Positions 1-27,000 of a stretch of 64,000 nt of DNA are shown here, one piece after another. The position numbers were made by a program, and so were the translations under genes. The number at the start of each line of letters is the position of its first letter. Position 1 is the first letter of the stretch. The stretch is from Leptolyngbya sp. KIOST-1 (GTDB taxonomy: Bacteria > Cyanobacteriota > Cyanobacteriia > Phormidesmidales > Phormidesmidaceae), in the NCBI RefSeq assembly GCF_000763385.1, contig NZ_JQFA01000004.1:620001-684000 (forward strand). Reading direction: 5' to 3'. The notes below the pieces were generated by a model. It did no database searches and was not told where the DNA came from. It saw only the letters and a program-made list of their open reading frames with translations.

Positions 1-1473
1 GGCCCAGGCTTCGGTAACGCCGAGAACTTTCTCAATGTGGCCGGGCCAGATGTCGTTGTCGGTGGCCATCACCACCCCCAGCCCCTCGGCCACGGCCCGA
101 GCATTCCAGGGTTCGCCCACGCAGTAGCCGTCGATTGCACCGGATTTCAGGGTCGAGACCATCTGGGCCGGGGGAATCACCGTCAGGCTGACGTCGCGAT
201 CGGGGTCGATGCCGCCGGAGGCCAGCCAGTAGCGCAGCAGCAGGTTGTGCATGGAGGTGGGGTGCACCGCCGCCAGGGTATGCACCTGGTCGGGCCGGCG
301 ATCGATCGCCGCCTTGAAGTCGCCCAGGGAGCGCATCCCGGCATCCACCAGGCGCTTGCTAAAGGTGATGGCGTTGCCGTTGCGACTGAGGGTGAGGGCG
401 CTCACCATTGGCCTGGGGCGCTGGTTGCCATAGCCCAGGGTCATGCCCAGGGGCATACCGGCCACCATCATGGCGGCATCGAGGCGGCCCGTGGCTACCC
501 CATCGGCGATCGCATTCCAGCTCGGCTCCCGGTTCAGGGTGACATTGGTGAGGCCGTGGGCCTCAAACAGGCCCTTCTCCTTGGCCACCACCAGGGGCGC
601 ACAGTCCACCAGGGGAATAAAGCCCAGCTCCAGGTTGACCTTCTCCAGGCCGTTGGCGGCCACCGCCACCGTGGGCTTGGCCCGGTGCAGCTTGGCCCGC
701 TTTTGCTGGTTGAGAAAGTAGACAATTTCGTTGCGCAGGCTGTAGTAGTTGGGGTGCTTCACCACCTCCATGCGCTCCCGGGGCCGGGGGAAGGGCACAT
801 CGACGATCTGGCCCACGTGGGCCTCGGGGCCGTTGGTCATCAGCACGATGCGATCGCTGAGTAGCAGCGCCTCATCCACATCGTGGGTGACCATCACGCA
901 GGTGACTTCGTTTTCCTGGCAGATCTGCATCAGCTGTTCCTGCAAACCGCCCCGGGTCAGCGCGTCCAGCGCCCCAAAGGGCTCGTCCAGCAGCAGCAGC
1001 TTGGGGCGAATGGCCAGGGCGCGAGCGATCGCCACCCGCTGTTTCATGCCGCCGGAGATCTCGCCGGGGCGCTTGTGGGCGGCCTTTTGCAGCCCCACCA
1101 TCTCAATGTGGTGGTCGATCATGCGATCGCGCACCGGCTGGGGGTGCTTTTTCATCACCCGGTTTACCGCCAGGGCAATGTTTTCGCGCACCGTCAGCCA
1201 GGGCAGCAGGGAGTAGTTCTGAAACACCACCATGCGATCGGGGCCGGGTTCGGTCACCTGCCGCCCCTCCAGCACAATGCCCCCCGCGCTGGGCTGATCC
1301 AGCCCCGAGAGAATGTTGAGCAGGGTCGATTTACCGCAGCCCGAGTGACCCACCAGGGAGACAAACTCCCCTTTGTGAATTTGCAGGTCGATATTTTTCA
1401 GGGCAATGTATTCGCCCCCGGCGGGGAGCTTAAAGACGCGATCGACGTGGTCAACTTCGACAAAGACAGCCAT
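1..1473 (-). CDS. nrtC: Nitrate ABC transporter ATP-binding subunit with NrtA-like C-terminal domain (partial, runs off left edge)
   Basis: Cytoplasmic ATPase of the high-affinity nitrate/nitrite uptake transporter. The visible 491 residues contain a complete ABC domain: Walker A GHSGCGKS at 45-52, signature ISGGMKQR at 142-149, Walker B LLLLDEP at 162-168 and the H-loop VTHD around 198-201. From about residue 270 the protein continues into a domain homologous to the substrate-binding protein NrtA, which is the hallmark of NrtC (NrtD lacks it). In NrtC this domain is known to sense nitrate/ammonium and regulate transport. The ATG at 1471-1473 fits the family N-terminus. The gene is third in a leftward nrtA-nrtB-nrtC order and its 3' end lies outside the window, where nrtD would be expected. 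Confidence 0.96.
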   Translation of the reverse strand, partial: MAVFVEVDHVDRVFKLPAGGEYIALKNIDLQIHKGEFVSLVGHSGCGKSTLLNILSGLDQPSAGGIVLEGRQVTEPGPDRMVVFQNYSLLPWLTVRENIALAVNRVMKKHPQPVRDRMIDHHIEMVGLQKAAHKRPGEISGGMKQRVAIARALAIRPKLLLLDEPFGALDALTRGGLQEQLMQICQENEVTCVMVTHDVDEALLLSDRIVLMTNGPEAHVGQIVDVPFPRPRERMEVVKHPNYYSLRNEIVYFLNQQKRAKLHRAKPTVAVAANGLEKVNLELGFIPLVDCAPLVVAKEKGLFEAHGLTNVTLNREPSWNAIADGVATGRLDAAMMVAGMPLGMTLGYGNQRPRPMVSALTLSRNGNAITFSKRLVDAGMRSLGDFKAAIDRRPDQVHTLAAVHPTSMHNLLLRYWLASGGIDPDRDVSLTVIPPAQMVSTLKSGAIDGYCVGEPWNARAVAEGLGVVMATDNDIWPGHIEKVLGVTEAWA

Positions 1474-1776
1474 GGTGCAACAGGAGATAGGGTGCAGGCG
1501 AACAGAAATTTTGGATTGGCAATTTTGGATGGGTGAGGAGCCGTAGGGTGCATCCGCACAGCGAGGCATCGCTAGGTAATGTTTGACGAATGCATTTCGA
1601 TGAGAAGAGGGTAGGGTGGGCACCGCCCACCACTCACCTCTGGCAGAATCACAGGTTTTGGCCGACGCACCCAGGCAAGATTGATTGCAGGTAGCGCGGC
1701 GGAATGGTGGGCAGTGCCCACCCTCCGGTTTTCCGGCTCCCCTCTCCCCCAGGGAGAGGGGCTGGGGGTGAGGGCG
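1474..1776. repeat. nrtB-nrtC spacer filled with short palindromic repeats
   Basis: This 303-bp spacer inside the operon carries two related palindromes, GGTGGGC(N)nGCCCACC, near 1616-1632 and 1707-1724. It also has a perfect hairpin at 1739-1761, CCCCTCTCCC-CCA-GGGAGAGGGG (10-bp arms, 3-nt loop), directly after the nrtB stop on the coding strand. No reading frame looks genuine. The hairpin lacks a U-tract, so it is more likely an mRNA-stabilising or polarity element than a full terminator (inference). Confidence 0.7.
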
Positions 1777-2622
1777 CTACTGCTTTTGTTCTTCGGGCAG
1801 TACCAGGCTGCCGATGAACACAATCAGGCGATCGAGCAGCAGACCGACAATGCCCACGTAGACGATGGCAATGATGATGTCGCTGATGCGGGAGCTGTTC
1901 CAGGCATCCCAGATGAAGAAGCCAATGCCCACGCCGCCAATCAGCATCTCCGCCGCTACGATCGCCAGCCAGGAGAGGCCAATGCCAATCCGCAGACCGG
2001 TAAAGATATAGGGCACCGTCGCCGGAAACAAAATCTTAAAGAAGTACTGGATCTTCGACAGCCGCAGCACCCGAGCCACGTTGTTGTAGTCCTGGGGAAT
2101 CTGGCGCACTCCCTCGGTGGTGTTGATGATGATGGGCCAGATAGCCGTAATGAAAATCACGAAAATAGCGGAGGGGTTGGCCTGCTGAAAGGCGGCCAGG
2201 GAGATGGGCAGCCAGGCCAGAGGGGGCACCGTCCGCAAAATCTGAAACAGCGGGTCGAGGGCGCTGTACATAATCGAACTGGTGCCGACCAGAATGCCCA
2301 GGGCAATTCCCGCGATCGCGGCCAGGCTAAAACCCAGGGCCACCCGCTGCAGACTGCTCCACACCTGCCAGAACAGACCGCGATCGGTGCCGCCGTAGTC
2401 AAAGAATGGGTTGACGATCAGCTCCCAGGTATCCTGCACGGTGCGGATTGGGGTGGGTAGGTTGGCGTTTGGCCCCATGGTTAGCAGTTGCCAGATCACC
2501 ACAAACAGCACAACGGCGATCAGGGGCGGAATCAGCCCTTTCAGCCAGTTCAACGCCTGGCCGCTGAGCTTTTGCAGGTTAAATCGCGATCGCGTCGATC
2601 GAATATCGAGGGGTGCGGTCAT
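1777..2622 (-). CDS. nrtB: Nitrate ABC transporter permease
   Basis: Integral inner-membrane subunit of the nitrate/nitrite transporter. The 281 residues match the usual NrtB length. A hydrophilic N-terminus of about 30 residues precedes a hydrophobic segment (LIAVVLFVVIWQLL), then several further membrane spans and the binding-protein-dependent permease fold. The EAA-type loop that docks on the ATPase is around residues 170-195 (IPQDYNNVARVLRLS). It lies between nrtA and nrtC in the same orientation, separated from both by repeat-bearing spacers of 153 and 303 bp instead of the tight spacing usual within an operon. Confidence 0.95.
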   Translation of the reverse strand: MTAPLDIRSTRSRFNLQKLSGQALNWLKGLIPPLIAVVLFVVIWQLLTMGPNANLPTPIRTVQDTWELIVNPFFDYGGTDRGLFWQVWSSLQRVALGFSLAAIAGIALGILVGTSSIMYSALDPLFQILRTVPPLAWLPISLAAFQQANPSAIFVIFITAIWPIIINTTEGVRQIPQDYNNVARVLRLSKIQYFFKILFPATVPYIFTGLRIGIGLSWLAIVAAEMLIGGVGIGFFIWDAWNSSRISDIIIAIVYVGIVGLLLDRLIVFIGSLVLPEEQKQ

Positions 2623-2732
2623 CGGGAACAGGTCTCCAGAGAGTACAGCGGGCGGACGAATGTTGGCCTGGGGATTTTGGATTTTGGCGAGTCCCAGATC
2701 CCCGACCGGGAGAGGTAGGGGTGGGTTTCCGG

Positions 2733-2757
2733 CCCCCTCGCCCGTAGGGCGAGGGGG
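2733..2757. repeat. Perfect hairpin between nrtA and nrtB
   Basis: CCCCCTCGCCC-GTA-GGGCGAGGGGG has 11-bp perfect arms and a 3-nt loop, just downstream of the nrtA stop codon on the coding strand. It has no U-tract. Stem-loops after a binding-protein gene commonly protect the upstream mRNA, which would let NrtA accumulate above NrtB/NrtC (inference). Confidence 0.7.
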
Positions 2758-2775
2758 ATGAGGGCGAGGGGAGTC

Positions 2776-4089
2776 CTACACCCGCTTGATCGCCAGGCTG
2801 TCCAGGTAGGCCTGGTAGTTTTCGGGGTCAAACTGAATGCCGTCGAAGAAGGTTTCAACACCGCGCGACGTGCTGGCGGGAATGGCGTCTTCCTGACCCA
2901 GGGCGATCGCTGCCTCGCGCCAGAGGTCTTCGCGGTTGACCTCATCCACCCAGGCGTTGACGTCGGTATCGGCGGGCAGCTTGCCCCAGCGGATGTTCTC
3001 CACCAGGAACCACAGGTCGTGGCTCTTGAAGGGGTAGGAGGCGTAGTCGTCCCAGTACTTCTGCTTCAGGTCAGGCAGTTCCTCGACCCGGCCATTGCCG
3101 AAGTCAAACTTGCCCTGGGAGCGGTCAATAATGTCGTCGAAGGGCACGTTAAACCAGGCCCGCTGGGAGAGAATGCGGCACATTTCCTCGGTGTTTTCGG
3201 GCTGGCTGCACCACATGGCGGCCTCCATAGTGCCCATCAAAAGCGCCTTGGCGGCGTTCGGGTTGGCGTCCACCCAGTCGGCCCGCATACCAAAGGCTTT
3301 TTCGGGGTGGTCTTTCCACATTTCGCCCGTGGTCAGGGCGTTGTAGCCAATCTGCTGGTTCACGGTTTGCAGGGGCCAGGGCTCACCCACGCAGAAGGCA
3401 TCCATATTGCCCACCTTGACGTTGGCCACCATCTGGGGCGGCGGCACCACAATGGTGTCGATGTCCTGGTCGGGGTCGATGCCGCCCGCCGCCAGCCAGT
3501 AACGAATCCATAGGTCGTGGGTACCGCCGGGGAAGGTCATCGCCGCCTTCAGCTCGCTGCCCGCGGACTTGCGCTGGGCAAAGATGGGCTGGAGGGGAGA
3601 ACTATCGAGGCCGATGTTGGCATCGAGGTAGTCGTTGGAGAGGGAAATCCCCTGGCCGTTGACGTTGAGGCGGGCCAGGATGTACATGGGCACCTCGCGG
3701 CCATCGGTGACAATGCCCTTGGAGATCAGGTAGGGCATGGGGGTGAGAATGTGGGCCCCGTCGATGCCACCGCCACCGGAACCCAGCACCAGGTTGTCGC
3801 GGGTGGTGCCCCAGGAGGCCTGTTTTTCCACCGACACGTCAGTCATGCCGTACTTGTCGTAGAAGCCTTTGACCTTGGCGATGATCAGCGGCGCAGAGTC
3901 GGTCAGGGCAATGAAACCCAGCTTGGCGGTCGGGGTTTCGGGGGCATCTTCGGGACCGAGCGCCACCTCGGGGGAGTTGTCTGTAGCCGCTGGATTCGAG
4001 CCCCCCTGACTGCAGGCGTGAAGCAGTACAGTACCAGCAGCGGCGGTGCCAGCGTTGATCAAAAATTTACGGCGATTTAGTCGAGTCAT
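2776..4089 (-). CDS. nrtA: Nitrate/nitrite-binding lipoprotein
   Basis: Periplasmic, membrane-anchored substrate-binding protein of the nitrate transporter, 437 residues as expected. The N-terminus has a twin-arginine-like RRKFL at 6-10, a hydrophobic stretch and a lipobox LLHAC, giving a lipidated Cys26; a Ser/Asn/Pro-rich linker follows. The fold is the NMT1/SsuA-like periplasmic binding type (KLGFIALTDSAPLIIAKVKGF region), and it is clearly homologous to the C-terminal half of the neighbouring NrtC. It is the first gene of the operon and lies about 430 nt downstream of a consensus NtcA promoter. No nirA is adjacent, unlike many cyanobacterial nirA-nrtABCD operons. Confidence 0.96.
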   Translation of the reverse strand: MTRLNRRKFLINAGTAAAGTVLLHACSQGGSNPAATDNSPEVALGPEDAPETPTAKLGFIALTDSAPLIIAKVKGFYDKYGMTDVSVEKQASWGTTRDNLVLGSGGGGIDGAHILTPMPYLISKGIVTDGREVPMYILARLNVNGQGISLSNDYLDANIGLDSSPLQPIFAQRKSAGSELKAAMTFPGGTHDLWIRYWLAAGGIDPDQDIDTIVVPPPQMVANVKVGNMDAFCVGEPWPLQTVNQQIGYNALTTGEMWKDHPEKAFGMRADWVDANPNAAKALLMGTMEAAMWCSQPENTEEMCRILSQRAWFNVPFDDIIDRSQGKFDFGNGRVEELPDLKQKYWDDYASYPFKSHDLWFLVENIRWGKLPADTDVNAWVDEVNREDLWREAAIALGQEDAIPASTSRGVETFFDGIQFDPENYQAYLDSLAIKRV

Positions 4090-4877
4090 GTTGCACTCAC
4101 TCCAGGGTTATGCAAAGCGGTAAAAACAAAAAGTGATCAGGGTATCGGCTGACCGCCGTTGGGCCAATCTCTGTGCCGAGTCCACAGAAGGTTGGAGATT
4201 CACTCAATTGTTTGTTCTGACACCGACAGCTTTTGGATTTCTATAAAACCAGAAACTGCCCAGCTAAAATGTGGCAACGTTGGCAGAACAAATGGAATTT
4301 AAGCGATCAATTGGTCGGCTTTGGTTTAAGACAGGCATTTGAGCATTACCACTCCCGGCGCATCACTGAACCAAGAGACAGTTTTTTTAAGGGCTCTTCA
4401 CCCTGTCGGCGAAGTAAAGTCTGAATTTTACAAAACCACAGCCCCGCAATTTTTTACTGAATTCTACTTGCGAACCGCCGCGACAAAGTCAACATTTCTG
4501 TGCTTCTGTATTGCGGCATTTGAGGTTAAGTTATTCAAACTCAGCCAGGGGTTTTGTATTTTTAGTTACGCTTTGCAATTAGCCATCCATTTATCGCATG
4601 AGCAAGATGTAGGATTTGCATAATTGACCCCAAAACCCCGATTCTCCGCGACCGCGGTAGCCCCAGAGCAGCAAAAGTAAGCCCCGATCGCGGCGACGGG
4701 AGCCACGACCGGGGCAACAGTGGGTTGGGTGGGCCTGGGAAAAGTGCCCAACTAGAGCCGACTCACCCGGATTGGTCACAAAGCAGCAATGGGCGACCGC
4801 CCCTGGCCTAAATTTGGCCTCCACCTGAAGCGCCCCCCAGGCAGCGGATTGCGTCCTGTCCAGGAATGGGGCCGGGG
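4090..4877. other. Long AT-richer leader of nrtA and intergenic space
   Basis: About 790 bp without a convincing gene, visibly poorer in GC between roughly 4200 and 4620 than the flanking coding DNA. It holds the NtcA promoter (separate entry) and, downstream of it on the minus strand, an untranslated leader of about 430 nt. Short frames here, such as 94 codons on the plus strand at 4339-4623, have no recognisable domain and overlap the promoter. An imperfect hairpin near 4681-4714 (GCCCCGATCG / CGACCGGGGC) may serve as a weak terminator for the leftward gene ending at 4878. Confidence 0.55.
4528..4569 (-). promoter_or_regulatory. NtcA-activated promoter of the nrt operon
   Basis: Read on the minus strand, GTAACTAAAAATAC (4569-4556) is a perfect GTA-N8-TAC NtcA site. 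After exactly 22 nt comes TAACTT (4533-4528), a match to the TAN3T -10 element. This is the canonical class II NtcA architecture (GTA-N8-TAC, N20-24, TAN3T) known from nitrogen-regulated cyanobacterial promoters. The start site should be near 4521. The site predicts activation of nrtABC(D) by NtcA/2-oxoglutarate under nitrogen limitation and repression by ammonium. On the plus strand the same palindrome has no correctly placed -10. Confidence 0.85.
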
Positions 4878-5315
4878 CTACAAAAGCTTGTTGGCCATCC
4901 CGATCAGCCCGGCCATCTGGCCCAGGTCGACCTCGCCGGAGAGCACTTTTTGCAGCAGCCCGCCGCCTTTGGCATTCGATCCTTTGACCAAAAACTGAGC
5001 GATCAGCGGAGTAACGCTTCTGACCATTGCTGGATCGGCCCCGACCCGCTGGGCGATCGCGGTGATTTGCTCGTTGGCCAGCAGTCGCTCCACCGCCCCT
5101 GTGGCTGCCACCGTTTGCAGCGTCGTCATCAGCGACCCCGGATTGTTCCGTCCTTTGGCCTGCAGCACGCCCTGGAGGCCACTGGCGATGCCGCCAATCT
5201 TGTTGTTCTCCACTGGGGCATTGTTGAGACTGCCCAAAATTGAACCCATCAGACCGCCGCTAGCTTCAGTATCGTTGGCGGCGATCGCCTGGTTGAGCAC
5301 ACCCATCAAATCCAT
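4878..5315 (-). CDS. DUF937-like small soluble protein
   Basis: 145 residues, rich in Gly, Ala, Leu and Asn, with no signal peptide or membrane span. The pattern (short helices with LGSLLNN/GLLGGLL-like segments, ITAIAQRVGADPAMVRSVTPLIAQFL around 83-108, then VLSGEVDLGQMAGLIGMANKLL at the C-terminus) resembles the DUF937/YidB family, whose function is not established. The match is by eye and only moderate. Its ATG at 5313-5315 is unambiguous. It lies alone between the nrt promoter region and the photolyase gene, both in the same orientation. Confidence 0.65.
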   Translation of the reverse strand: MDLMGVLNQAIAANDTEASGGLMGSILGSLNNAPVENNKIGGIASGLQGVLQAKGRNNPGSLMTTLQTVAATGAVERLLANEQITAIAQRVGADPAMVRSVTPLIAQFLVKGSNAKGGGLLQKVLSGEVDLGQMAGLIGMANKLL

Positions 5316-5425
5316 CTGCTCAGTCCTCCGTCAAATGTTCCTGTCCCCTGTCTCGAATAGGCTAAGCCCTTTCCCCCCGGGCGGCAAGTCCACTGGGGAA
5401 CATCTTCGGGCGCCATACTCGGACG

Positions 5426-7117
5426 CTATGCCAGGGGTCGATCCAGATCGAGCAGGCTGAGCTGGTGAATGGTGGGGTCTGTGGCCTGGGGTTTGGGGCG
5501 GCGGCGGCGCGATCGCGGTGGCGCAATGGCGACGTGGGCCACAAACCAGGTCCGCAGGGCCGCCGCCTCTTCTGGCCCCAGGTCGCTCAGCGGCAGCGCC
5601 GCCGGAAACAGATCGTTCCCAGGGGCTGCGGCCCAGCCCACCTCGCCGCCGTAGAGATCGGTGCCAAAGGGAGTCAGGTCTGAGGGCATCGGGGCCAAAA
5701 ACGGCAGCAGGTTGCTGGCGTGAAGGAACTGGCCCCGCTGGGCTTCGAGTTGTTTGACCCGGCGCTGGCGGGCGGCTTTGTAGTTGAGAATGGGGGCCGG
5801 GTAGCCGGAGAGGGTGGGTGGGCGGCCCAGCTGGCTGGCGGGCACATCGGCCAACTCCGGCACCCAGCGCTTGATGAACTCCCCCTCCGGATCGCAGCGA
5901 TCGACAGCCACCTGGCCAGGGTTGTAGATGCGGGTCCAGGTCTTGTCCACGCAGTGGGTAACCCCCGACTGCATGGCCCACTGGTAGTGGTCGATGGGGC
6001 AGTCACCGTCGATCAGGTGGCGCATGAAGTGCAGCGCTCCGTAGCGCCAGTCAATGCCGCCCAAATTGCTCAAAAAGCTAGCGTAGATGGCGCGGGTGCG
6101 AAAGTTTAGCGCCAGGTAGCCGCCCGTGGCCTGGAGGCAGCGCGCGGCGGCATCCACAATCGGGAAGCCGGTTTGCCCGGACTGCCAGGCCTGGTAGAGG
6201 TCGGCGTCAAAGCTCCAGCCTCCATAGTCGCCCCCACCGTCGCCCTCGTCAAAGGTACGGTAGAGCGATCGCAGCTCCAGCTGAGGCAGATAGCGAAACC
6301 GCTGGGCAAATCCGCTGCCCCAGCGCAGCCGCGAAATTAGCTGCTGGTGGCTGCGGCGCAGGCGGCTGTCGCCCCAGTCGGGAGCCTGACGAACGGTCTG
6401 CACGCACTCCCGCACCGAGATTACGCCGAACTTGATGTGGGGACTGAGGCCCGTGGTGGCTTCGGCGCTGGGGTAGGAGAGCTGCCAGTAGTAGCGATCG
6501 GCCTTGGCGGCCAGGAAGTCCTGCAGTAGGGTGCGGGCGGCGGCGGTACTGGCCGGGGGCAGCGGCTTGCCGTCGGCCTGGTGGCCCAGGCTGCCCAGGT
6601 CCGGCAGGGGCTCGGTGGGGAGATCCGGCGGAACCAGGACCTGGGTCGGCGTGGGCACCAGGGGCTGTCCCATTTCGCGGTACCAGATCTCGCGGTAGTC
6701 GGGGTAGGGGACCAGGGGGTCAACGCTGGCGGCCGGTTCAAACCAGCGAATCTTCAGGTTTTGCTCAGCCAGAGCCCGGTTGAGGCGGGCATCGCGCACC
6801 CGCCCGTAGATGCGCTCCACATCGGTGTGGGCATAGATGCCGTCGGCCCCGGTCGCGCGCAGCAGCTCGGGCAGCACCTGCACGGGGTCCCCCGATCGCA
6901 GGATCAGCCGTCCCCCCAGCCCCCTCAAGTCCGCATTCAGGGCGTGCAGGGCCGCCAGCAAAAAGGCCACCCGCGCCGACCCGGTTTCGGGGTGGTGCAG
7001 CAGGGCGCGATCGAACACAAACACGGGCACCACCAGCCCCCGCCGGGCCGCCCGCAGCAGCGGCTCGTGGTCAGACACCCGCAGGTCGCGACGAAACCAG
7101 ACGATGGTTGTGTTCAT
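5426..7117 (-). CDS. Cryptochrome/photolyase family flavoprotein
   Basis: FAD-dependent DNA photolyase or blue-light receptor, 563 residues. The ATG at 7115-7117 is chosen because TIVWFRRDLRVSDHEPL, the classical photolyase N-terminus, begins right after it; a longer frame to 7198 adds an unrelated 27 residues. An N-terminal antenna-binding alpha/beta domain (1-130) and a helical FAD domain are seen (LSPHIKFGVIS 224-234, TGFPIVDAAARCL 316-328, IDWRYGALHFMRHLIDGD 355-372, CDPEGEFIKRWVPEL 408-422). By hand alignment the residue facing FAD N5 is Asp376 (DHYQW), where CPD photolyases have Asn; plant cryptochromes also have Asp. The usual Trp-Gln-Trp substrate loop is replaced by WAMQSGVTHC. CPD repair activity is therefore uncertain. 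A LexA-box-like sequence lies about 120 bp upstream. Confidence 0.9.
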   Translation of the reverse strand: MNTTIVWFRRDLRVSDHEPLLRAARRGLVVPVFVFDRALLHHPETGSARVAFLLAALHALNADLRGLGGRLILRSGDPVQVLPELLRATGADGIYAHTDVERIYGRVRDARLNRALAEQNLKIRWFEPAASVDPLVPYPDYREIWYREMGQPLVPTPTQVLVPPDLPTEPLPDLGSLGHQADGKPLPPASTAAARTLLQDFLAAKADRYYWQLSYPSAEATTGLSPHIKFGVISVRECVQTVRQAPDWGDSRLRRSHQQLISRLRWGSGFAQRFRYLPQLELRSLYRTFDEGDGGGDYGGWSFDADLYQAWQSGQTGFPIVDAAARCLQATGGYLALNFRTRAIYASFLSNLGGIDWRYGALHFMRHLIDGDCPIDHYQWAMQSGVTHCVDKTWTRIYNPGQVAVDRCDPEGEFIKRWVPELADVPASQLGRPPTLSGYPAPILNYKAARQRRVKQLEAQRGQFLHASNLLPFLAPMPSDLTPFGTDLYGGEVGWAAAPGNDLFPAALPLSDLGPEEAAALRTWFVAHVAIAPPRSRRRRPKPQATDPTIHQLSLLDLDRPLA

Positions 7118-7568
7118 GGCGGTGGCAGCAGGGCGATCGCGGTCAGGATGGCGTGGCTGGGTAGAGCCTGAAAGCAGGGGGGCGATCGCCCTTTTCAAAC
7201 CGTAACAAAAAAATATGACCCCAGCCGCTTGCTGAATAGTATTTCTGTACTATACTTGTACTCGCAAGCTACTCCTGCGCTCTGCACCGTCCGCTGCCGT
7301 TGCTCTCCAGCGCTTCCCTCCGGGGGGCGATAACCGAGCCGACGGCAGGCATCGTCCCTCTGGCCTAAACACTATAGCTACCTGTCTCTGGTGCCTGGGG
7401 CATCGGTGGCCGGTGGCGCTTGAAAAGGTGTATGTCTTCCAGCTGGCCACCCACCCCTGGAGAAACTGGCCGGGTGGGGTTCAGGTTTTTGCCCCTGGTC
7501 GCTAATTCCGGCAGAGTTGGGAGCCCCCTGTTTCCATTCCCCAACAGTAGACAGCAAAGGTCAACGCC
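7118..7568. other. Intergenic region between divergent genes, with promoters
   Basis: 451 bp between the leftward photolyase gene and the rightward membrane-protein gene. It holds the LexA-box-like site at 7238-7251 and overlapping GTAC-containing repeats just after it (7248-7262). No further gene was seen. Confidence 0.5.
7238..7251. promoter_or_regulatory. Candidate cyanobacterial LexA box
   Basis: AGTATTTCTGTACT fits the Anabaena-type LexA consensus RGTACNNNDGTWCB with one mismatch (T for C at the fifth base). It lies 121 bp upstream of the photolyase start and about 317 bp upstream of the rightward gene. A DNA-repair gene is a plausible target, but cyanobacterial LexA regulons vary and this is a single imperfect match. 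Confidence 0.35.
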
Positions 7569-8183
7569 ATGGCTCAACAATCCTCGTATCCGGTTTCGTC
7601 CCACTATCGCCCCCAGGTACCCCAAACTGGGCCGTCGGCGCCGTCTCAGGCAGCTGGCCAGGGCAATGCCCACCGCTCGTCCCAGCGGTCCTACCCGGGG
7701 CAGCAGACTCAGCGATCCGCTCACCCCTGGAGCGAAGGTCAAGCGGGACCCCAACCCTACGGCACCGCCCCAACGCGGATGAGCGGTCGGGCGATCTACG
7801 GCCAGGCGGGTCGCCATCAACCCCGTCAGGTGCTGGTGGCGGGCGGGTCGGTACTGGCCCTGGCGGCGCTGCTGATCACCCCCAACCTGAACCAGGAAAC
7901 CGCCCAGGAGGTTGAGCCCTTTACCTGCCTTCGCCAGGAACAGCCCCAGGCCCTGGTGTCTCGCGACCAGGTCAAAAAGCTTTTAGAAACCGATCTACAG
8001 GCCTCCAAGGCCACGGTGCAGGAGTTCCTCAAGGCTCCCTACTGCGTGCTGTCGCCCGGAAAAACCGAGGCCGGGCTGCCCGCAGACCGCGAGGCCTACC
8101 CCCTGGAGTTTGACCCCCAAACCTGGCTGGTGGTGCTCTACGACGGCGATCGCTACGTCGGCTACGACTTTAGATTTCGCTAG
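7569..8183 (+). CDS. Membrane-anchored protein with disordered Q/S/P-rich N-terminus
   Basis: 204 residues, not recognised. Residues 1-85 are low complexity (Gln, Ser, Pro, Gly, Arg) and probably disordered. One membrane span follows (VLVAGGSVLALAALLIT, about 88-104), then a compact C-terminal domain of about 100 residues that contains two Cys and ends in YDGDRYVGYDFRFR. The topology suggests a cytoplasmic N-terminal tail and a periplasmic or lumenal globular domain (inference). The ATG at 7569 is preceded by a purine-rich AGCAAAGG. The stop codon TAG (8181-8183) lies in the terminal CTAG of the dispersed repeat that begins at 8180. Confidence 0.7.
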   Translation: MAQQSSYPVSSHYRPQVPQTGPSAPSQAAGQGNAHRSSQRSYPGQQTQRSAHPWSEGQAGPQPYGTAPTRMSGRAIYGQAGRHQPRQVLVAGGSVLALAALLITPNLNQETAQEVEPFTCLRQEQPQALVSRDQVKKLLETDLQASKATVQEFLKAPYCVLSPGKTEAGLPADREAYPLEFDPQTWLVVLYDGDRYVGYDFRFR

Positions 8184-8280
8184 TACTCTGCGGCGCAAGT
8201 TGGCCAACCATGCCTGACCCCTGGCACCCGGCACCCAACACCCACAGCAAGGGTGTTGTATTTCTGCCCGCCAACACCAG
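8180..8280 (-). repeat. Dispersed repeat R1, copy 1
   Basis: About 100 bp, the reverse complement of the element at 20065-20171: CTAGTACTCTGCGGC at one end, the shared core GGCACCCGGCACCCAACACC in the middle, and TTTCTGCCCGCCAACACCAG at the other end (16 of 20 identical to copy 2). It begins inside the stop codon of the preceding gene. Confidence 0.75.
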
Positions 8281-8316
8281 TTGGCCTAACCCAGGTCGGG
8301 GCCTGGAGCCCTTTTA

Positions 8317-8405
8317 GGGCGTGTCAACAATTGTGGCTAAACGACGGGCTAGGGGCTGTAACCCTTAATTTTTGATTGTTCAGCAGCTAATTGATGACCG
8401 CCCCC
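8317..8405. repeat. Dispersed inverted-repeat element M1, copy A
   Basis: About 89 bp with inverted ends GGGCGTGTCAACAATT and GGGGGCGGTCATCAATT (the second as reverse complement). It shares the internal segment GCTAGGGGCTGTAACCCTTA with copy F at 56281. No coding capacity. Confidence 0.75.
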
Positions 8406-8508
8406 AGCAAACCGGCGGCGGTGCTTGTCTCGTCCTCAACGTTCTTTGCTAAAGTGGCAGGACAAATTGGCTAAGTGCTCTGGCTTAGCTTGCTACGGTG
8501 GTGCAACG

Positions 8509-10308
8509 GTGTTGAAACCCAAGCTGCAGCTGAAAAGACCTCCACTGCCCCTCGTGGTGGTGGCGACCCTGCTGTTTATGACCGGCGGCGTGCTGACGTT
8601 TTGGCTCACCGCCCGGCGAGGACAGCTGGCCAGAACCCTGCCTGCGGGAGCCAACGCCATTCCCGCCGACGCGCTGATGGTGGTGGCTCTCTCCAGCGAT
8701 GAGGCCCAGTGGCGACGGCTGCGCCAGTTTGGCACCGAGGCCACCCAGGCTCAGTTCGATCAGCTTTTGGGGCAGTGGCGCGATCGCCTGCTGAGCCAGC
8801 ACAACCTTACCTTTGCCCGCGATATTCAGCCCTGGGTAGGCCCAGAGATTACCCTGGCGGTGCTGCCCGATACAACGGCTCCCGCCGACCTGCCCCCCTC
8901 GCTGCCGGCCCCTGAACTGGCCCTTGGCGCCAACGTGGTGGTGGTGGTGCCGATCGCCGATGCCAATCGGGCTCAGAACGACCTGGGCGATCGCCTGGGT
9001 CAGGCCGAGCAGGTCGAAGATGCCCCCTACCGGGGGGTGAATCTACAACAGCTGGAAGGCGAAGCCGAGACACCCCTCTACGCCGCCGTGCTGAGTGCTG
9101 AAACGGCGGTGCTCAGCCCTCAGCTACCCCTGCTCAAGCGGGCGATCGATGCCTATCGCGGCGGCGACTCCCTGGTTGATCGGCCTGGGGTGAGCAGAGC
9201 CTTTGAGCAGATTACCGAAACCCGGCCGCTGGTCCGCTTCTATGTCGATGTTCCGGCCCTGGCCCAAACCATCGCCCAGGGGGCCGATCCGCCCATTGCC
9301 CCCAACCGTCTGCGGGCGTTTCAGGCCCCCCGGGGGCTGGTGGGCACCATCGCAGTCAAAAACCGTGGGGTGGCGCTGCAGGGCGTGAGCTGGCTGGAGC
9401 CGGGGTCGCAGACTTTTGCCACCGGCAACCCGGCCGGGCAGATGCCCCAGCGCCTGCCCACTGGTGCGCTGCTGGCCGTCTCTGGGGGAAATTTTCAGCA
9501 GTTTTGGGAGGACTTTCAGGCGGGCAATCAGCTCTCAGCGCTGCTGCCGCTGCAGGCCGAAGACATGGCCCTGGGGTTTCAGTCGGCCACCGGCCTCAGG
9601 CTGGATGAGAACCTGCTGCCCTGGATGGCGGGAGAATTTGCCCTGGGGGTGCTGACACCACCCGATGCCGCCACGGACAATACTGACGCTGCCACTGCGC
9701 CCCCCCTGCCCAACCCAGCCCTGGTGCTGATGGTCAAAGCCAGCGATCGCGAGGCCGCCACGGCCACCTTTGATCAGCTCAACGCCGTGATGGAAAGCCG
9801 CTACCGATTCACGGTGGAAGAGGCGGATCTGGGGGGCGTGCCCGTCACCCGCTGGACGTCTCCCTTTGACTCCCTGGTCATGGCCCACGGCTGGCTGGAG
9901 GGCGACATTGCCTTTTTCACCATCGGTCAGGGCATAGCGGAGCTGATCACACCATCGCCCGCTCGCCGCCTGGCTGAAAACAATCTGTTCCAGGCCTCCA
10001 CCGGGGAAGCCCCGCGCCCCAACAACGGCCATTTCTTTGCCAACCTGGAGGCGCTGAGCGCCGTCGAAAACAACCTGCTGCTGCCGCCGCTGCCCCAGGA
10101 GGGGTTGCTCGGGTCTGAGGCGATCGAGGCGGTTGGGGTGACGGCAACGGTCCTCAGCGATCGCCAGGTGCGCTACGACATGATGGCCATTCTTCGGCGG
10201 GGCGGTCGCCCTGGGCCGCTGCCCCCCGCCGATGCGCCCCCCGCCGAAGCGGCCTCCCCGGTACCGGAGCCCGAGGCTGAAGCACCCCCCGAGAACCAGC
10301 CGGAGTAG
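8509..10308 (+). CDS. DUF3352 family membrane-anchored protein
   Basis: 599 residues from the GTG at 8509; the longer frame beginning with TTG at 8425 adds residues unlike the family and overlaps the M1 repeat flank. One N-terminal membrane anchor (PLPLVVVATLLFMTGGVLTFWL) precedes a large extracytoplasmic domain in which the DUF3352 pattern is visible: PADALMVVALSSD near the start, repeated LPLLKRAIDAYRGGDSL-like segments, and SPFDSLVMAHGWLEGDIAFFTIGQGIAELI in the C-terminal half. The last 45 residues are Pro/Glu/Ala-rich. DUF3352 proteins are widespread in cyanobacteria and have no established function. The gene precedes ccsA by 120 bp in the same orientation; a link to cytochrome maturation is not shown. 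Confidence 0.8.
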   Translation: MLKPKLQLKRPPLPLVVVATLLFMTGGVLTFWLTARRGQLARTLPAGANAIPADALMVVALSSDEAQWRRLRQFGTEATQAQFDQLLGQWRDRLLSQHNLTFARDIQPWVGPEITLAVLPDTTAPADLPPSLPAPELALGANVVVVVPIADANRAQNDLGDRLGQAEQVEDAPYRGVNLQQLEGEAETPLYAAVLSAETAVLSPQLPLLKRAIDAYRGGDSLVDRPGVSRAFEQITETRPLVRFYVDVPALAQTIAQGADPPIAPNRLRAFQAPRGLVGTIAVKNRGVALQGVSWLEPGSQTFATGNPAGQMPQRLPTGALLAVSGGNFQQFWEDFQAGNQLSALLPLQAEDMALGFQSATGLRLDENLLPWMAGEFALGVLTPPDAATDNTDAATAPPLPNPALVLMVKASDREAATATFDQLNAVMESRYRFTVEEADLGGVPVTRWTSPFDSLVMAHGWLEGDIAFFTIGQGIAELITPSPARRLAENNLFQASTGEAPRPNNGHFFANLEALSAVENNLLLPPLPQEGLLGSEAIEAVGVTATVLSDRQVRYDMMAILRRGGRPGPLPPADAPPAEAASPVPEPEAEAPPENQPE

Positions 10309-10428
10309 CCAGCAGAGCCCAACGTCCGAGTCACCACCCAAGCCACCCGCCGAGCCCCACCCAATTTCAGACCAGAAAAGTCGGTAGTATAGGAGGTAAT
10401 TCGTCTTCCCATCCTCTTTTTACGACCT

Positions 10429-11430
10429 ATGGATTTGATTGCGCTCCAGGGCTGGCTTGACAACACATCCTTTGCGGTGCTGTTTATCGCCATGCTGCTG
10501 TACTGGTGCGGGGTTGCCTTTCCCCGCGCGACGCTGCTGCCAGCGCTGGGCACTGGGGCTGTCGCTGCGGGCAACCTCACCATCGCCGCACTGCTGGTCG
10601 CCCGCTGGATCGAGGGGGGATACTTCCCCATGAGCAATCTCTACGAGTCGCTGTTTGCCCTGGCCTGGGGGATTACCGCCATGCACCTGGTGGCCGAGCG
10701 CATGAGCCGCAGTTCGCTAGTGGGGGCTGTCACCGCACCCATCGCCATGGCGATTACGGCCTTTGCCACCCTGTCGCTGCCGGGCACCATGCAGGGCTCA
10801 GAGCCCCTGGTTCCCGCGCTCAAATCCAACTGGCTAATGATGCATGTCAGCGTCATGCTGCTCAGCTACGCGGCGCTGCTGGTGGGGGCGCTGCTGGCGA
10901 TCGCGTTTCTACTCGTCACCCGCGGCCAGGCGGTGGAGCTGAAGGGCAGCTCTGTGGGCACGGGCGGGTTTCGCAACGTAAAACTCCACCGGGCCGCAGC
11001 TGAAGCCGCCCCCACCGGCGAGCTGGCCCAGCCCCTGGCGGCCTCCGCTGGCGGGGCCGCCGTGCTCGAAAAAGCCCCGGCGGCTACCGTGGTGCTCTCG
11101 CCCCAGCGACTGACTCTAGCCGATACCCTCGACAACATCAGCTACCGCATGATTGGCCTGGGCTTCCCGCTGCTGACCATCGGCATTATCGCCGGGGCGG
11201 TGTGGGCCAACGAAGCGTGGGGCTCCTACTGGAGCTGGGACCCCAAAGAAACCTGGGCGCTGATTACCTGGCTGGTGTTCGCCGCCTACCTGCACGCCCG
11301 CATTACTAAAGGCTGGCAGGGGCGTCGTCCGGCGATCTTAGCCGCCGCTGGATTTGTGGTGGTGTGGGTGTGCTACCTGGGCGTCAATATTTTGGGCAAG
11401 GGCTTACACAGCTACGGCTGGTTTTTCTAA
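10429..11430 (+). CDS. ccsA: c-type cytochrome synthase subunit CcsA
   Basis: Membrane haem-handling subunit of system II cytochrome c biogenesis, which works with Ccs1/CcsB to attach haem to apocytochromes on the lumenal or periplasmic side. The 333 residues carry about eight membrane spans and the diagnostic WWD-type motif [13 protein letters not shown] at 264-276. Haem-ligand histidine candidates are visible, including MHV around residue 142, HAR in the segment [12 protein letters not shown], and HSYGWFF at the C-terminus. A Gly/Ala-rich cytoplasmic loop (about 165-230) is longer than in plastid CcsA. Its partner ccs1 is not in the window. The mscS-type gene starts 8 bp after its stop, so the two are probably co-transcribed. 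Confidence 0.95.
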
Positions 11431-11438
11431 CCTCAGCC

Positions 11439-13283
11439 ATGCTCACACCACAGCCGCCATCGACAACTCGAAAACGACTGGGTTTCTGGGCGCGATCGCT
11501 TTTTGCTTTTGTCCTGGGGGGGCTGATGGCCCTCGGCTGCGGCACCCTGGCGGCCGCCCAACTGCCCAATCCCTTCACCCCCGGCACCGGCACCCTGCCG
11601 CCTGCGGGGGTGAAGCGGATTGGCCTGCTGGAAGTCACCTCAGTCAGCCTCGACGGAATTGCCCTGTTCGACATTGCCTCTCCAGCGGTTTTTAACCGCA
11701 ATGAAGCAGGTGCTGGGGTGCCGGTCGAAGTGCGGGCCCGCCAGATCGAGACCAATCTCAACCAGGTGGTGAACCGCGCCCTGCCCCTGATCGATGCCGA
11801 CGAGTCCCTCAGCAGTGCGTCCCTGGAAATCAGTATCGAGCTGATTGGCGGGCAGCCGGTGCTGTTTGCGGTGGGTGCGGGGCTGGTGGAACCCAGGGTT
11901 TTGCTGACAGTGACCGACACCGATGCCCAGTACAACGAGGTTTCCCAGGGGGATCTGGCCGAGCGCTGGCAGGCAGAACTGCAGGACGAGCTGCGCCAGG
12001 CGGTCGACAGTCGTCTCCCCGGAGCCCGGCGGCAGCAAGTTCGCAGAACCCTCTGGATCCTGCTGGCCGCCATTCTCCTCACTTTGCTGCTGACCGGGAT
12101 CTGGCAAGTGCTGGGCTGGCGCAAGAGCGCCCTGGAGCGCAGACAGACCGCCCAGGCAGACCTACCGGCAATCCCCGACGATGCGTTCCCCGCCCAGCAG
12201 ATTCAGTCCCTGTTTCGTTACCAGATCACCCTGGAGCAGCGGCTGCAGGTGGTGGCCTTTCTGCGCTGGCTGATGTTCTGGGGAATTGCCTTTGTGTGGA
12301 TTACCGGCATTGCCAGCGGCCTCTATATTTTTCCCCAAACCCGTGGCTATGCTGTTGGGCTGTTCTCCATCCCGGTGCTGCTGCTGCTGACCTGGTTTCT
12401 GGCCGGGCTTTTCAACCGACTGACCAATCTGGCGATCGAGCGGGTAGCCCAGGCCTGGAGCAAAAACGAGCTGGGCGATCTCGACGATATCCAGCGCAAA
12501 TCCATGCGCCTTTCCACCATTACTGGGGCGCTGAAGGGGTTGAAGACTACTGTTGTCTACGTGCTGGCCACCCTGCTGGTGCTGCAAACCCTGCGGATTG
12601 CGCCAGCGTCGCTGCTGGCCTTCGGGGCGATCGCGGCCCTAGCCATCTCGTTTGCGGCCCAAAGCCTAGTCAAAGACGTGGTCAACGGCTTCCTGATCTT
12701 GCTCGAAGACCAGTACGCCATTGGCGATCTGGTCAGCATCGGCACCACCACCGGCATTGTCGAAAACCTCAACCTGCGCATCACCCAGATCCGCGGCGAA
12801 GATGGTCGCCTGGTCACCCTGCCCAACAGCCTGATTGCCCAGGTCGAAAACCTCAGTCGCTCCTGGTCGCGGGCCAATATCAGAATTGATGTGGCCTATG
12901 GCACCAACGTGGATGAGGCGCTGTGGGTGGTGCAGGAAACCGCCCATGCTATGGCCAGCGACCCCGAGTGGCGCTACGCCATTCTCAATCCGGTGGAAAT
13001 GCTGGGCATCGACGCGATGACCCACGCTGGCCTCACGGTATTGCTCTGGATTCGCACCCGCCCCCTGAAGCAGTTTTTGGTGGCCCGTGAGTACCGTCGC
13101 CGCCTGCGAATTGCCTTTGACCGAGCGGAAATTGCCATTGGGGTGCCCCAGCAGACCTTTATGGGGCTGGACAATGGCCATAGCGGCGGGTCAAACAAAG
13201 GCTTGACCGAGCGGGATGACTCTGTCGTCGATGGCGGCGGGGCTCACTCCTCAGCGACACCAGAGCCGATTGAACCCCGCTAA
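11439..13283 (+). CDS. MscS-family mechanosensitive ion channel
   Basis: 614 residues from the ATG at 11439; a longer frame back to 11364 overlaps ccsA. A signal-like hydrophobic segment (about 20-40) is followed by a periplasmic domain to about residue 195, then TM spans near 205-225, 275-295 and 305-335. The MscS core has a pore helix region ALAISFAAQSLVKDVVNGF (about 399-417) and the beta domain DQYAIGDLVSIGTTTGIVENLNLRITQIRGEDGRLVTLPNS. The cytoplasmic vestibule domain follows and the tail is polar and disordered. The role is osmotic safety valve or small-ion conductance. It follows ccsA by 8 bp and is convergent with the response regulator (12 bp between ends). Confidence 0.9.
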   Translation: MLTPQPPSTTRKRLGFWARSLFAFVLGGLMALGCGTLAAAQLPNPFTPGTGTLPPAGVKRIGLLEVTSVSLDGIALFDIASPAVFNRNEAGAGVPVEVRARQIETNLNQVVNRALPLIDADESLSSASLEISIELIGGQPVLFAVGAGLVEPRVLLTVTDTDAQYNEVSQGDLAERWQAELQDELRQAVDSRLPGARRQQVRRTLWILLAAILLTLLLTGIWQVLGWRKSALERRQTAQADLPAIPDDAFPAQQIQSLFRYQITLEQRLQVVAFLRWLMFWGIAFVWITGIASGLYIFPQTRGYAVGLFSIPVLLLLTWFLAGLFNRLTNLAIERVAQAWSKNELGDLDDIQRKSMRLSTITGALKGLKTTVVYVLATLLVLQTLRIAPASLLAFGAIAALAISFAAQSLVKDVVNGFLILLEDQYAIGDLVSIGTTTGIVENLNLRITQIRGEDGRLVTLPNSLIAQVENLSRSWSRANIRIDVAYGTNVDEALWVVQETAHAMASDPEWRYAILNPVEMLGIDAMTHAGLTVLLWIRTRPLKQFLVAREYRRRLRIAFDRAEIAIGVPQQTFMGLDNGHSGGSNKGLTERDDSVVDGGGAHSSATPEPIEPR

Positions 13284-26294: not shown

Positions 26295-26576
26295 GGGTCT
26301 GTCCTCTCAGTTGTTCAACCAACGTCAGATTTTACCCTGTTGGGGAGTCGCCCCGCAGCTTTGCTGCACACGTGTCTGAATGATCAATCGAATTCTTGAC
26401 CTCAACCGTTGTCCTGACGATAGATCCATACTTCTCCAGAGTTCATCGCTGCCCGAACAGCATTGAGCAAGTTGAGAGATTACCAATAGCGCTGGCAGGC
26501 GTGGGATAATAGTATTGTTGAAGCAGTGAGAAGAACTTAACTCTGGTGATTCATATCATTAGAAAGTGAGGAATGT

Positions 26577-26801
26577 ATGGCCTTTCAATTTACAGTCACT
26601 ATTGAAAAAGATGATGAAGGGTATTATGCTCATTGTCCGCAATTGCCGGGGTGCCAGAGCCAAGGAGAAACGTTAGAAGAGGTAAAAGCAAACATTCAAG
26701 AGGCTATTGAACTTTACCTGGAAACTCTTTCCTACGCCGAAAAACAGGCTTTGGCTAAACAAGAAATTTTGACTATGCAGCTTGAGGTACAAGTTGCCTA
26801 A
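26577..26801 (+). CDS. hicB: HicB-family antitoxin
   Basis: 74 residues with the partial RNase-H-like HicB fold: FTVTIEKDDEGYYAHCPQLPGCQSQGETLEEVKANIQEAIELYLE is the diagnostic run (described by position 4-48). There is no evident C-terminal DNA-binding helix beyond the acidic helix, as in short HicB proteins. It neutralises HicA and may autoregulate. The ATG has GAGG 6 nt upstream (AGTGAGGAATGT). It precedes hicA with overlap, the hicB-first order. The pair is distinctly poorer in GC than the surrounding genes, as expected for a transferred module. Confidence 0.9.
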   Translation: MAFQFTVTIEKDDEGYYAHCPQLPGCQSQGETLEEVKANIQEAIELYLETLSYAEKQALAKQEILTMQLEVQVA

Positions 26802-27000
26802 ACAACCAAGGCTGACTCACCAAGAGGCAGAGCAGAGGCTACTCAAAGCTAATTTTTTACTTATACGTACAAAGGGTAGTCATCGTATTTATTTCCGAGA
26901 AGGAGTAAGAGTTGTCGTGCCTTGCCACTCCGGGAAAACTTTGCATCCAAAGATAGTTAAGCAGGTGCTTGAAGCAATTGAGTCGTTTGACAATGACTAG
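26794..27000 (+). CDS. hicA: HicA-family mRNA interferase toxin
   Basis: 68 residues in the double-stranded-RNA-binding-like HicA fold. The catalytic His30 lies in TKGSHRIYF and the segment VVVPCHSGKTLHPKIVKQVLEAI follows, both typical. Start chosen is TTG at 26794 because GAGG lies 6 nt upstream and MPKQPRLTHQEAEQRLLKANF is the family N-terminus; it overlaps the hicB stop by 8 nt (TTGCCTAA). A TTG at 26782 would give a 72-residue form. Toxin cleaves mRNA during translation stress in known systems. Confidence 0.9.
   Translation: MPKQPRLTHQEAEQRLLKANFLLIRTKGSHRIYFREGVRVVVPCHSGKTLHPKIVKQVLEAIESFDND

Follow-up and report, generated by a model that had tools for sequence, protein, structure and literature searches.

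The window, by which we mean the whole 64,000-nt stretch of DNA that was analysed, carries on its minus strand the first genes of a nitrate transport unit from a Nodosilinea-type cyanobacterium, together with a long intergenic region (Table 1). The assignment of nrtA rests on comparison with solved structures, the nearest being that of NrtA (2g29, 651 bits versus 427 bits for the bicarbonate protein CmpA, 2i48), and on its orthologues in genomes G037, G039 and G046, which are linked to nirA. NrtA proteins of this clade also share 60-67% identity with many NrtA-like proteins of alphaproteobacteria, and several genomes of the family have a second paralogue, 50-54% identical, which was not found in the window's own genome at that cut-off. 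A hairpin at 4715-4681, with a folding energy of -30.6 kcal/mol, parts the nrt unit from a co-directional ORF (5315-4878) and would insulate the unit. Strong hairpins begin 57-128 nt before the LysR-type box in several relatives and are absent in others.

Table 1. Features of the nrtA upstream region and adjacent genes in the window.
Feature	Positions	Strand	Basis
nrtC (part inside the window; nrtD follows outside it)	1..1623	-	TIGR01184
nrtB, permease	1777..2622	-	TIGR01183 ntrB
nrtA, nitrate-binding protein	2776..4089	-	nearest solved structure 2g29
Shine-Dalgarno-like GGAG before nrtA	4100..4103	-	sequence, alignment
Predicted 432-nt leader, AT-rich	4090..4521	-	sequence, GC content
Conserved mid-leader stretch	4240..4290	-	alignment identity, consensus, genome search
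Candidate stem-loop at the 5' end, limited to the clade and weak in the window itself	4473..4521	-	folding, covariation
Predicted transcription start	4521	-	NtcA centre + 41.5; canonical layout in PMC3898017
-10 box TAACTT (TAN3T), 22 nt from NtcA site	4528..4533	-	sequence reading, alignment
NtcA-type site GTA-N8-TAC	4556..4569	-	sequence reading, pattern search, conservation in relatives
LysR-type box ATGCA-N5-TACAT (putative NtcB-like site)	4607..4621	-	same spacing at own nirA promoter
Terminator-like hairpin, 14 pairs, 11 GC	4681..4715	-	between upstream co-directional ORF and promoter

An earlier note on this DNA had stated that nirA is not next to nrtA, and we located it elsewhere in the genome, at G000:C5:147821-149413. 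It is followed by a narB-like molybdopterin oxidoreductase gene, which nitrate-reductase models matched below their curated cut-offs. At a distance of 2.3 kb from the nirA promoter there is a LysR gene, and a HEAT-repeat ORF and one more ORF stand between the two. One stretch (L150 3435-10828, on G000:C5) holds the LysR gene, the HEAT-repeat ORF, nirA and the narB-like gene together, apart from nrtABCD. The NtcA sites of ntcB and nirA in Anabaena are about 2.9 kb apart, according to PMC3898017. The nirA matches in G037 and G051-G055, six in all, each count one stop in the aligned range, which may be the natural end of the gene.

The same note had described, upstream of nrtA, a GTA-N8-TAC motif followed after exactly 22 nt by TAN3T, and had read it as a class II NtcA promoter. 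Direct reading of the minus strand bore out the motif: positions 4569-4556 are GTAACTAAAAATAC, and TAACTT follows after 22 nt at 4533-4528, so both elements of a class II promoter, the GTA-N8-TAC site and a TAN3T box about 22 nt downstream, were found. Canonical NtcA promoters, as defined in PMC3898017, have the NtcA site centred about 41.5 nt before the start, and position 4521 is the start predicted by adding this distance to the centre of the site. In the 64-kb window there is one match to the exact composite pattern, while shuffled versions of the window gave a mean of 0.03 and at least one match in 2 of 100 cases. Over the whole genome, 15 matches were found versus 12 for a reversed control pattern, which is no clear enrichment. 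Because the composite is hardly enriched genome-wide, the pattern alone proves little, and the evidence lies in its place and its conservation.

Conservation was analysed with nrtA loci from relatives. The nrtA search matched 37 of 63 genomes and the loci are the best 30 of these 37; the next four orthologues (G053, G052, G056 and G061, 65-70% identical) and the paralogues of about 50% identity stand outside the set. After removal of L031, in which the match begins at residue 60, and replacement of L009 by L036, from the same genome with a longer flank, 29 family loci were compared. The promoter is present in 24 of these, counting the window's own: the layout is exactly GTA-N8-TAC-22-TAN3T in 20, and four more (L006, L017, L032 and L033) have GTG in the first half-site. 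In L008 and L030 the upstream sequence, of only 228 and 121 nt, is too short to tell. The remaining three loci (L011, L027 and L029, from G037, G039 and G046) lack the promoter, and in these nirA lies directly upstream, its match ending 116-167 nt before that of nrtA. In 21 of the 24 promoter-bearing genomes nirA was placed elsewhere; among the other three, G028 gave no nirA match, and the nirA search covered genomes other than G029, G027 and G040, of which G029 and G040 are those of L016 and L019. Since the promoter is seen where nirA does not stand in front, it appears to be the promoter that belongs to nrtABCD itself once this unit is split off. Among 17 close sequences, mean pairwise identity was highest over the promoter (0.83), fell to 0.55 in the leader and was 0.40 in the sequence upstream of the promoter. 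The reading of 4569-4528 as an NtcA-activated promoter of class II type, to which NtcA presumably binds, is therefore well supported by conservation in relatives. Of the cyanobacterial loci that are more distant, 14 were compared; L045 alone has the strict composite before nrtA, with a short leader, and in L049 it stands before nirA. In three loci outside the family (L050, L051 and L053) the composite promoter is missing and no nirA was recognised directly upstream, and the rule is therefore limited to the family.

Upstream of the NtcA site, at 4621-4607 on the minus strand, lies a LysR-type box, ATGCA-N5-TACAT, which the earlier note had not mentioned. It stands 38 nt before the NtcA site, as it does in 20 of the 24 promoter-bearing loci; the spacing is 39 nt in three others (L028, L032 and L033), and the last, L016, has a variant box, ATGCGGATTCTACAT, at the corresponding position. 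The nirA promoter of the window's own genome shows the same arrangement, with the box ATGCAATCCGCGCAG, 38 nt, the NtcA site, 22 nt and TAGGCT, so that a LysR-type box upstream of the NtcA site is common to both units. Of 8 genomes searched, own genome included, 5 have the strict composite of box, NtcA site and -10 element before nirA. With a relaxed pattern, in which one half-site could be imperfect, an NtcA-like site followed after 21-23 nt by TAN3T was present at 29 of 30 nirA loci returned (from 58 genomes with a match), the thirtieth (L173) having only 164 nt of upstream sequence. An ATGC-type box, counted on the printed strings, was at the corresponding place in 27 of those 29. The form of the box fits a LysR-type regulator, judging from sequence; TGCA-N5-TGCA is what we take to be the NtcB motif, and the activator acting at 4621-4607 is most likely NtcB. 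In PMC7699953, ntcB is described as the co-activator of the nir operon.

The leader of about 430 nt predicted in the earlier note agrees with the distance of about 432 nt from the predicted start to nrtA, which begins at 4089. That the leader is unusually long is true in comparison with the leader of about 100 nt predicted for the genome's own nirA, but not within the clade, since the NtcA site lies 416-648 nt before the ATG across the promoter-bearing nrtA loci; a long predicted nrt leader is typical of the clade. In one other genome (L169, from G026) nirA too has its promoter far off, about 640 nt ahead of the open frame, giving long leaders on both units. The leader is AT-rich compared with its neighbourhood, as had been noted, with a GC content of 0.456 versus a mean of 0.613 for the window; only 551 stretches of 432 nt (0.87%) have a lower GC content, and within 1-12000 the minimum falls on a stretch that begins at 4196 and overlaps both leader and promoter. 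The lowest-GC stretch of this length in the whole window is at 26463-26894 (0.407).

Folding of the whole leader was unremarkable (z -1.09), and the signal that was detected is concentrated at its 5' end. When alignment windows were slid over the leader, 2 of 18 beat column-shuffled alignments (z -3.7 and -3.8), both on the 5' end; the one preceding them gave z -2.5, and the others were above -1.1 (two undefined). For 25 leaders (L009 removed as a duplicate), the 58 nt that directly follow the -10 box had a mean z of -1.51, the lowest of 50 offsets, with 17 of 25 leaders below -1; the next lowest mean, -1.15, was at offset -90, over the LysR box. The excess folding belongs to close relatives: 16 close leaders had a mean z of -2.07, with 11 below -1, while the window's own leader gave z -0.94 (p 0.185).

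The stem-loop at 4521-4473 was scored on two alignments, with 18 and 16 of the 26 leaders respectively; leaders judged by eye not to align were omitted. In the 18 sequences, 78.6% of cells were paired versus 34-40% in slid versions, and the covariation score was 0.215 versus 0.169 in shuffles, of which 2 in 500 were as high; pairs with changes on both sides were reached by 33, and the pair types by 53, of 500 shuffles. Columns 12-54, for example, pair as AU in nine sequences, GC in six and GU in three, with none broken. Support was milder for 16 trimmed sequences (19, 115 and 141 of 500 shuffles for the same three measures), and these scores come from the very sequences from which the structure was derived. 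RNAalifold predicted no pair on alignment A1. Because poorly aligning leaders had been left out, nine deeper relatives, not used for the structure, were given a separate folding test; their mean z was -0.74, with three of nine below -1. A covariance model of the stem-loop (R1), run on 26 genomes of the genus, had a single match in each of 15, at the nrtA leader, all 15 being training genomes; there was no match in the 11 non-training genomes of the genus, with 150 first-look candidates scored per genome. Over 30 sources, R1 matched the window, itself a training sequence, and the best of the other 29 was L024 with an E of 2. With matches confined to the genomes of its training sequences, we rejected the hairpin as a widespread RNA family. 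In the same folding test, 25 nirA leaders had a mild signal at offset 0, with a mean z of -0.98, and their strongest, -1.53, at offset -100, in the region of the LysR box, so that this test does not show a 5' hairpin to be general for these promoters. The stem-loop is thus best described as a clade-limited candidate, outside known families, that begins at the predicted start.

A second part of the leader, 4290-4240, has the majority consensus TTCTGCYARCNTTGCCACANTTT...TTCTGATTYTATRGA and, judged from the alignments, is clearly more constrained than the rest of the leader. When 60 genomes were searched with it, the 10 best matches, with E values up to 0.0013, all stood before nrtA, and the next match (G007) covered 26 nt at E 0.0095. 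Alignment windows over this stretch showed no structure, and a possible pairing of 4290-4282 with 4214-4206 was discarded, as by eye several relatives do not preserve the 3' arm. At its end, about 150 nt ahead of the ATG, the stretch reads CTGATTYTATRGA, and a second promoter there might drive nrtA with a short leader. This is improbable: in neither register does the -10 hexamer have both A at position 2 and T at position 6, some relatives have GATGGA or CATGGC there, the stretch keeps no -10 hexamer, and a scan of 4000-4900 found no promoter-like site, so that an internal sigma-70 promoter was rejected. It is more improbable still that the leader codes for a conserved small protein. A TTG-started frame, LFCQ..., is present in the conserved stretch in 10 of 17 sequences, but its start is not conserved, its stops differ and L005 has an in-frame stop; no open frame is kept over the stretch, and no conserved small ORF was found in the leader in the 17 sequences, in which the commonest ATG-start column is common to only seven, with frames of differing length.

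The earlier note had also suggested that the leader could hold a regulatory RNA or attenuator. An element of this kind, whether a ligand- or protein-controlled attenuator or the source of a small RNA, would add nitrogen control after initiation. The distance of the NtcA site from the ATG, long throughout the clade, the compensatory pairs of the 5' stem-loop and the conservation of 4290-4240 before nrtA are consistent with this, as is a weak terminator-like hairpin with a U-run at 4154-4135 (4165-4120 folds at -10.0 kcal/mol). However, the leader had no Rfam match at the gathering score and a single chance-level match in the region (E 4.5), contains no conserved upstream ORF and, by eye, no terminator kept across relatives. 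The hairpin at 4154-4135, which appears by eye to be kept only in the closest relatives, makes a doubtful attenuator; a terminator scan of the window found three terminator-like sites in 4000-4900 versus 1.3 expected. Furthermore, the U-run that follows the 5' stem varies and is missing in the window itself, folding of the leader as a whole is unremarkable, and its sequence diverges with many indels. Attenuators of the NasR/NasT type are nitrate/nitrite-responsive elements in leaders. The nrt leader resembles these as the long leader of a nitrate-assimilation operon, but differs in that no conserved terminator with a U-run was seen in the alignments by eye; a two-hairpin ANTAR-type target was sought through Rfam only. 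The suggestion is therefore not supported, and we regard a regulatory RNA or attenuator as unlikely. In its fullest form, the leader would be a new, clade-specific and nitrogen-responsive RNA device in which the 5' stem-loop and 4290-4240 would bind a protein, small RNA or ligand and set nrtABCD output after NtcA/NtcB-driven initiation, having arisen when the transporter genes split from nirA, and to this we also give little credence.

Alternatively, the leader could be passive, a spacer left by the separation of nrt from nirA, and its conserved middle stretch could be a relic or a DNA-binding site. The position of nirA directly upstream of nrtA in G037, G039 and G046, and, as far as the opening residues of the ORF upstream can be judged by eye, also in L048, L049, L052, L056 and L072, agrees with such an origin, as do the varying leader lengths and the low conservation outside short stretches. 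On the other hand, the constraint on 4290-4240 and a 5' end that folds better than its shuffles in most close relatives argue against a wholly passive leader, which we consider a serious possibility without favouring it.

Taken together, it is probable that the region holds an activator-dependent promoter of its own for the nrtABCD unit, in a cyanobacterium in which nirA and the narB-like gene are separate; an ordinary class II promoter with NtcA and NtcB is the best reading and accounts for nearly everything. At high 2-oxoglutarate, NtcA would bind 4569-4556 and bring RNA polymerase to TAACTT, and the presumed NtcB, responding to nitrite or nitrate, would bind the LysR-type box and enhance transcription. 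Transcription from near 4521 would produce the long leader, whose first 50 nt or so fold in close relatives and would form a stem-loop at the 5' end. The simplest role of this stem-loop would be to shield the mRNA from 5'-end-dependent decay, which is possible although rather doubtful.

In Anabaena, nrtABCD lies behind nirA in one operon, and the nirA leader is some 460 nt long. The promoter described here, in contrast, stands before nrtA, with nirA elsewhere. Its layout of GTA-N8-TAC, 22 nt and TAN3T is that of the nir operon promoter of Anabaena sp. PCC 7120, given in PMC3898017 as GTAGCTACTTATAC-22-TAACCT for nirA. The presumed use of NtcB would likewise follow the Anabaena nir operon, for which PMC7699953 names NtcB as co-activator. 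The closest likeness within the genome is to its own nirA promoter, which differs in its short predicted leader and in the sequence of its box. The findings thus outline how control is laid out in a split nitrate-assimilation regulon, in which one module of LysR box, 38 nt, NtcA site, 22 nt and -10 element stands before both nirA and nrtABCD. With this common module, both units should respond together, and if the leader is indeed functional, it would add an extra layer of control on nitrate uptake.
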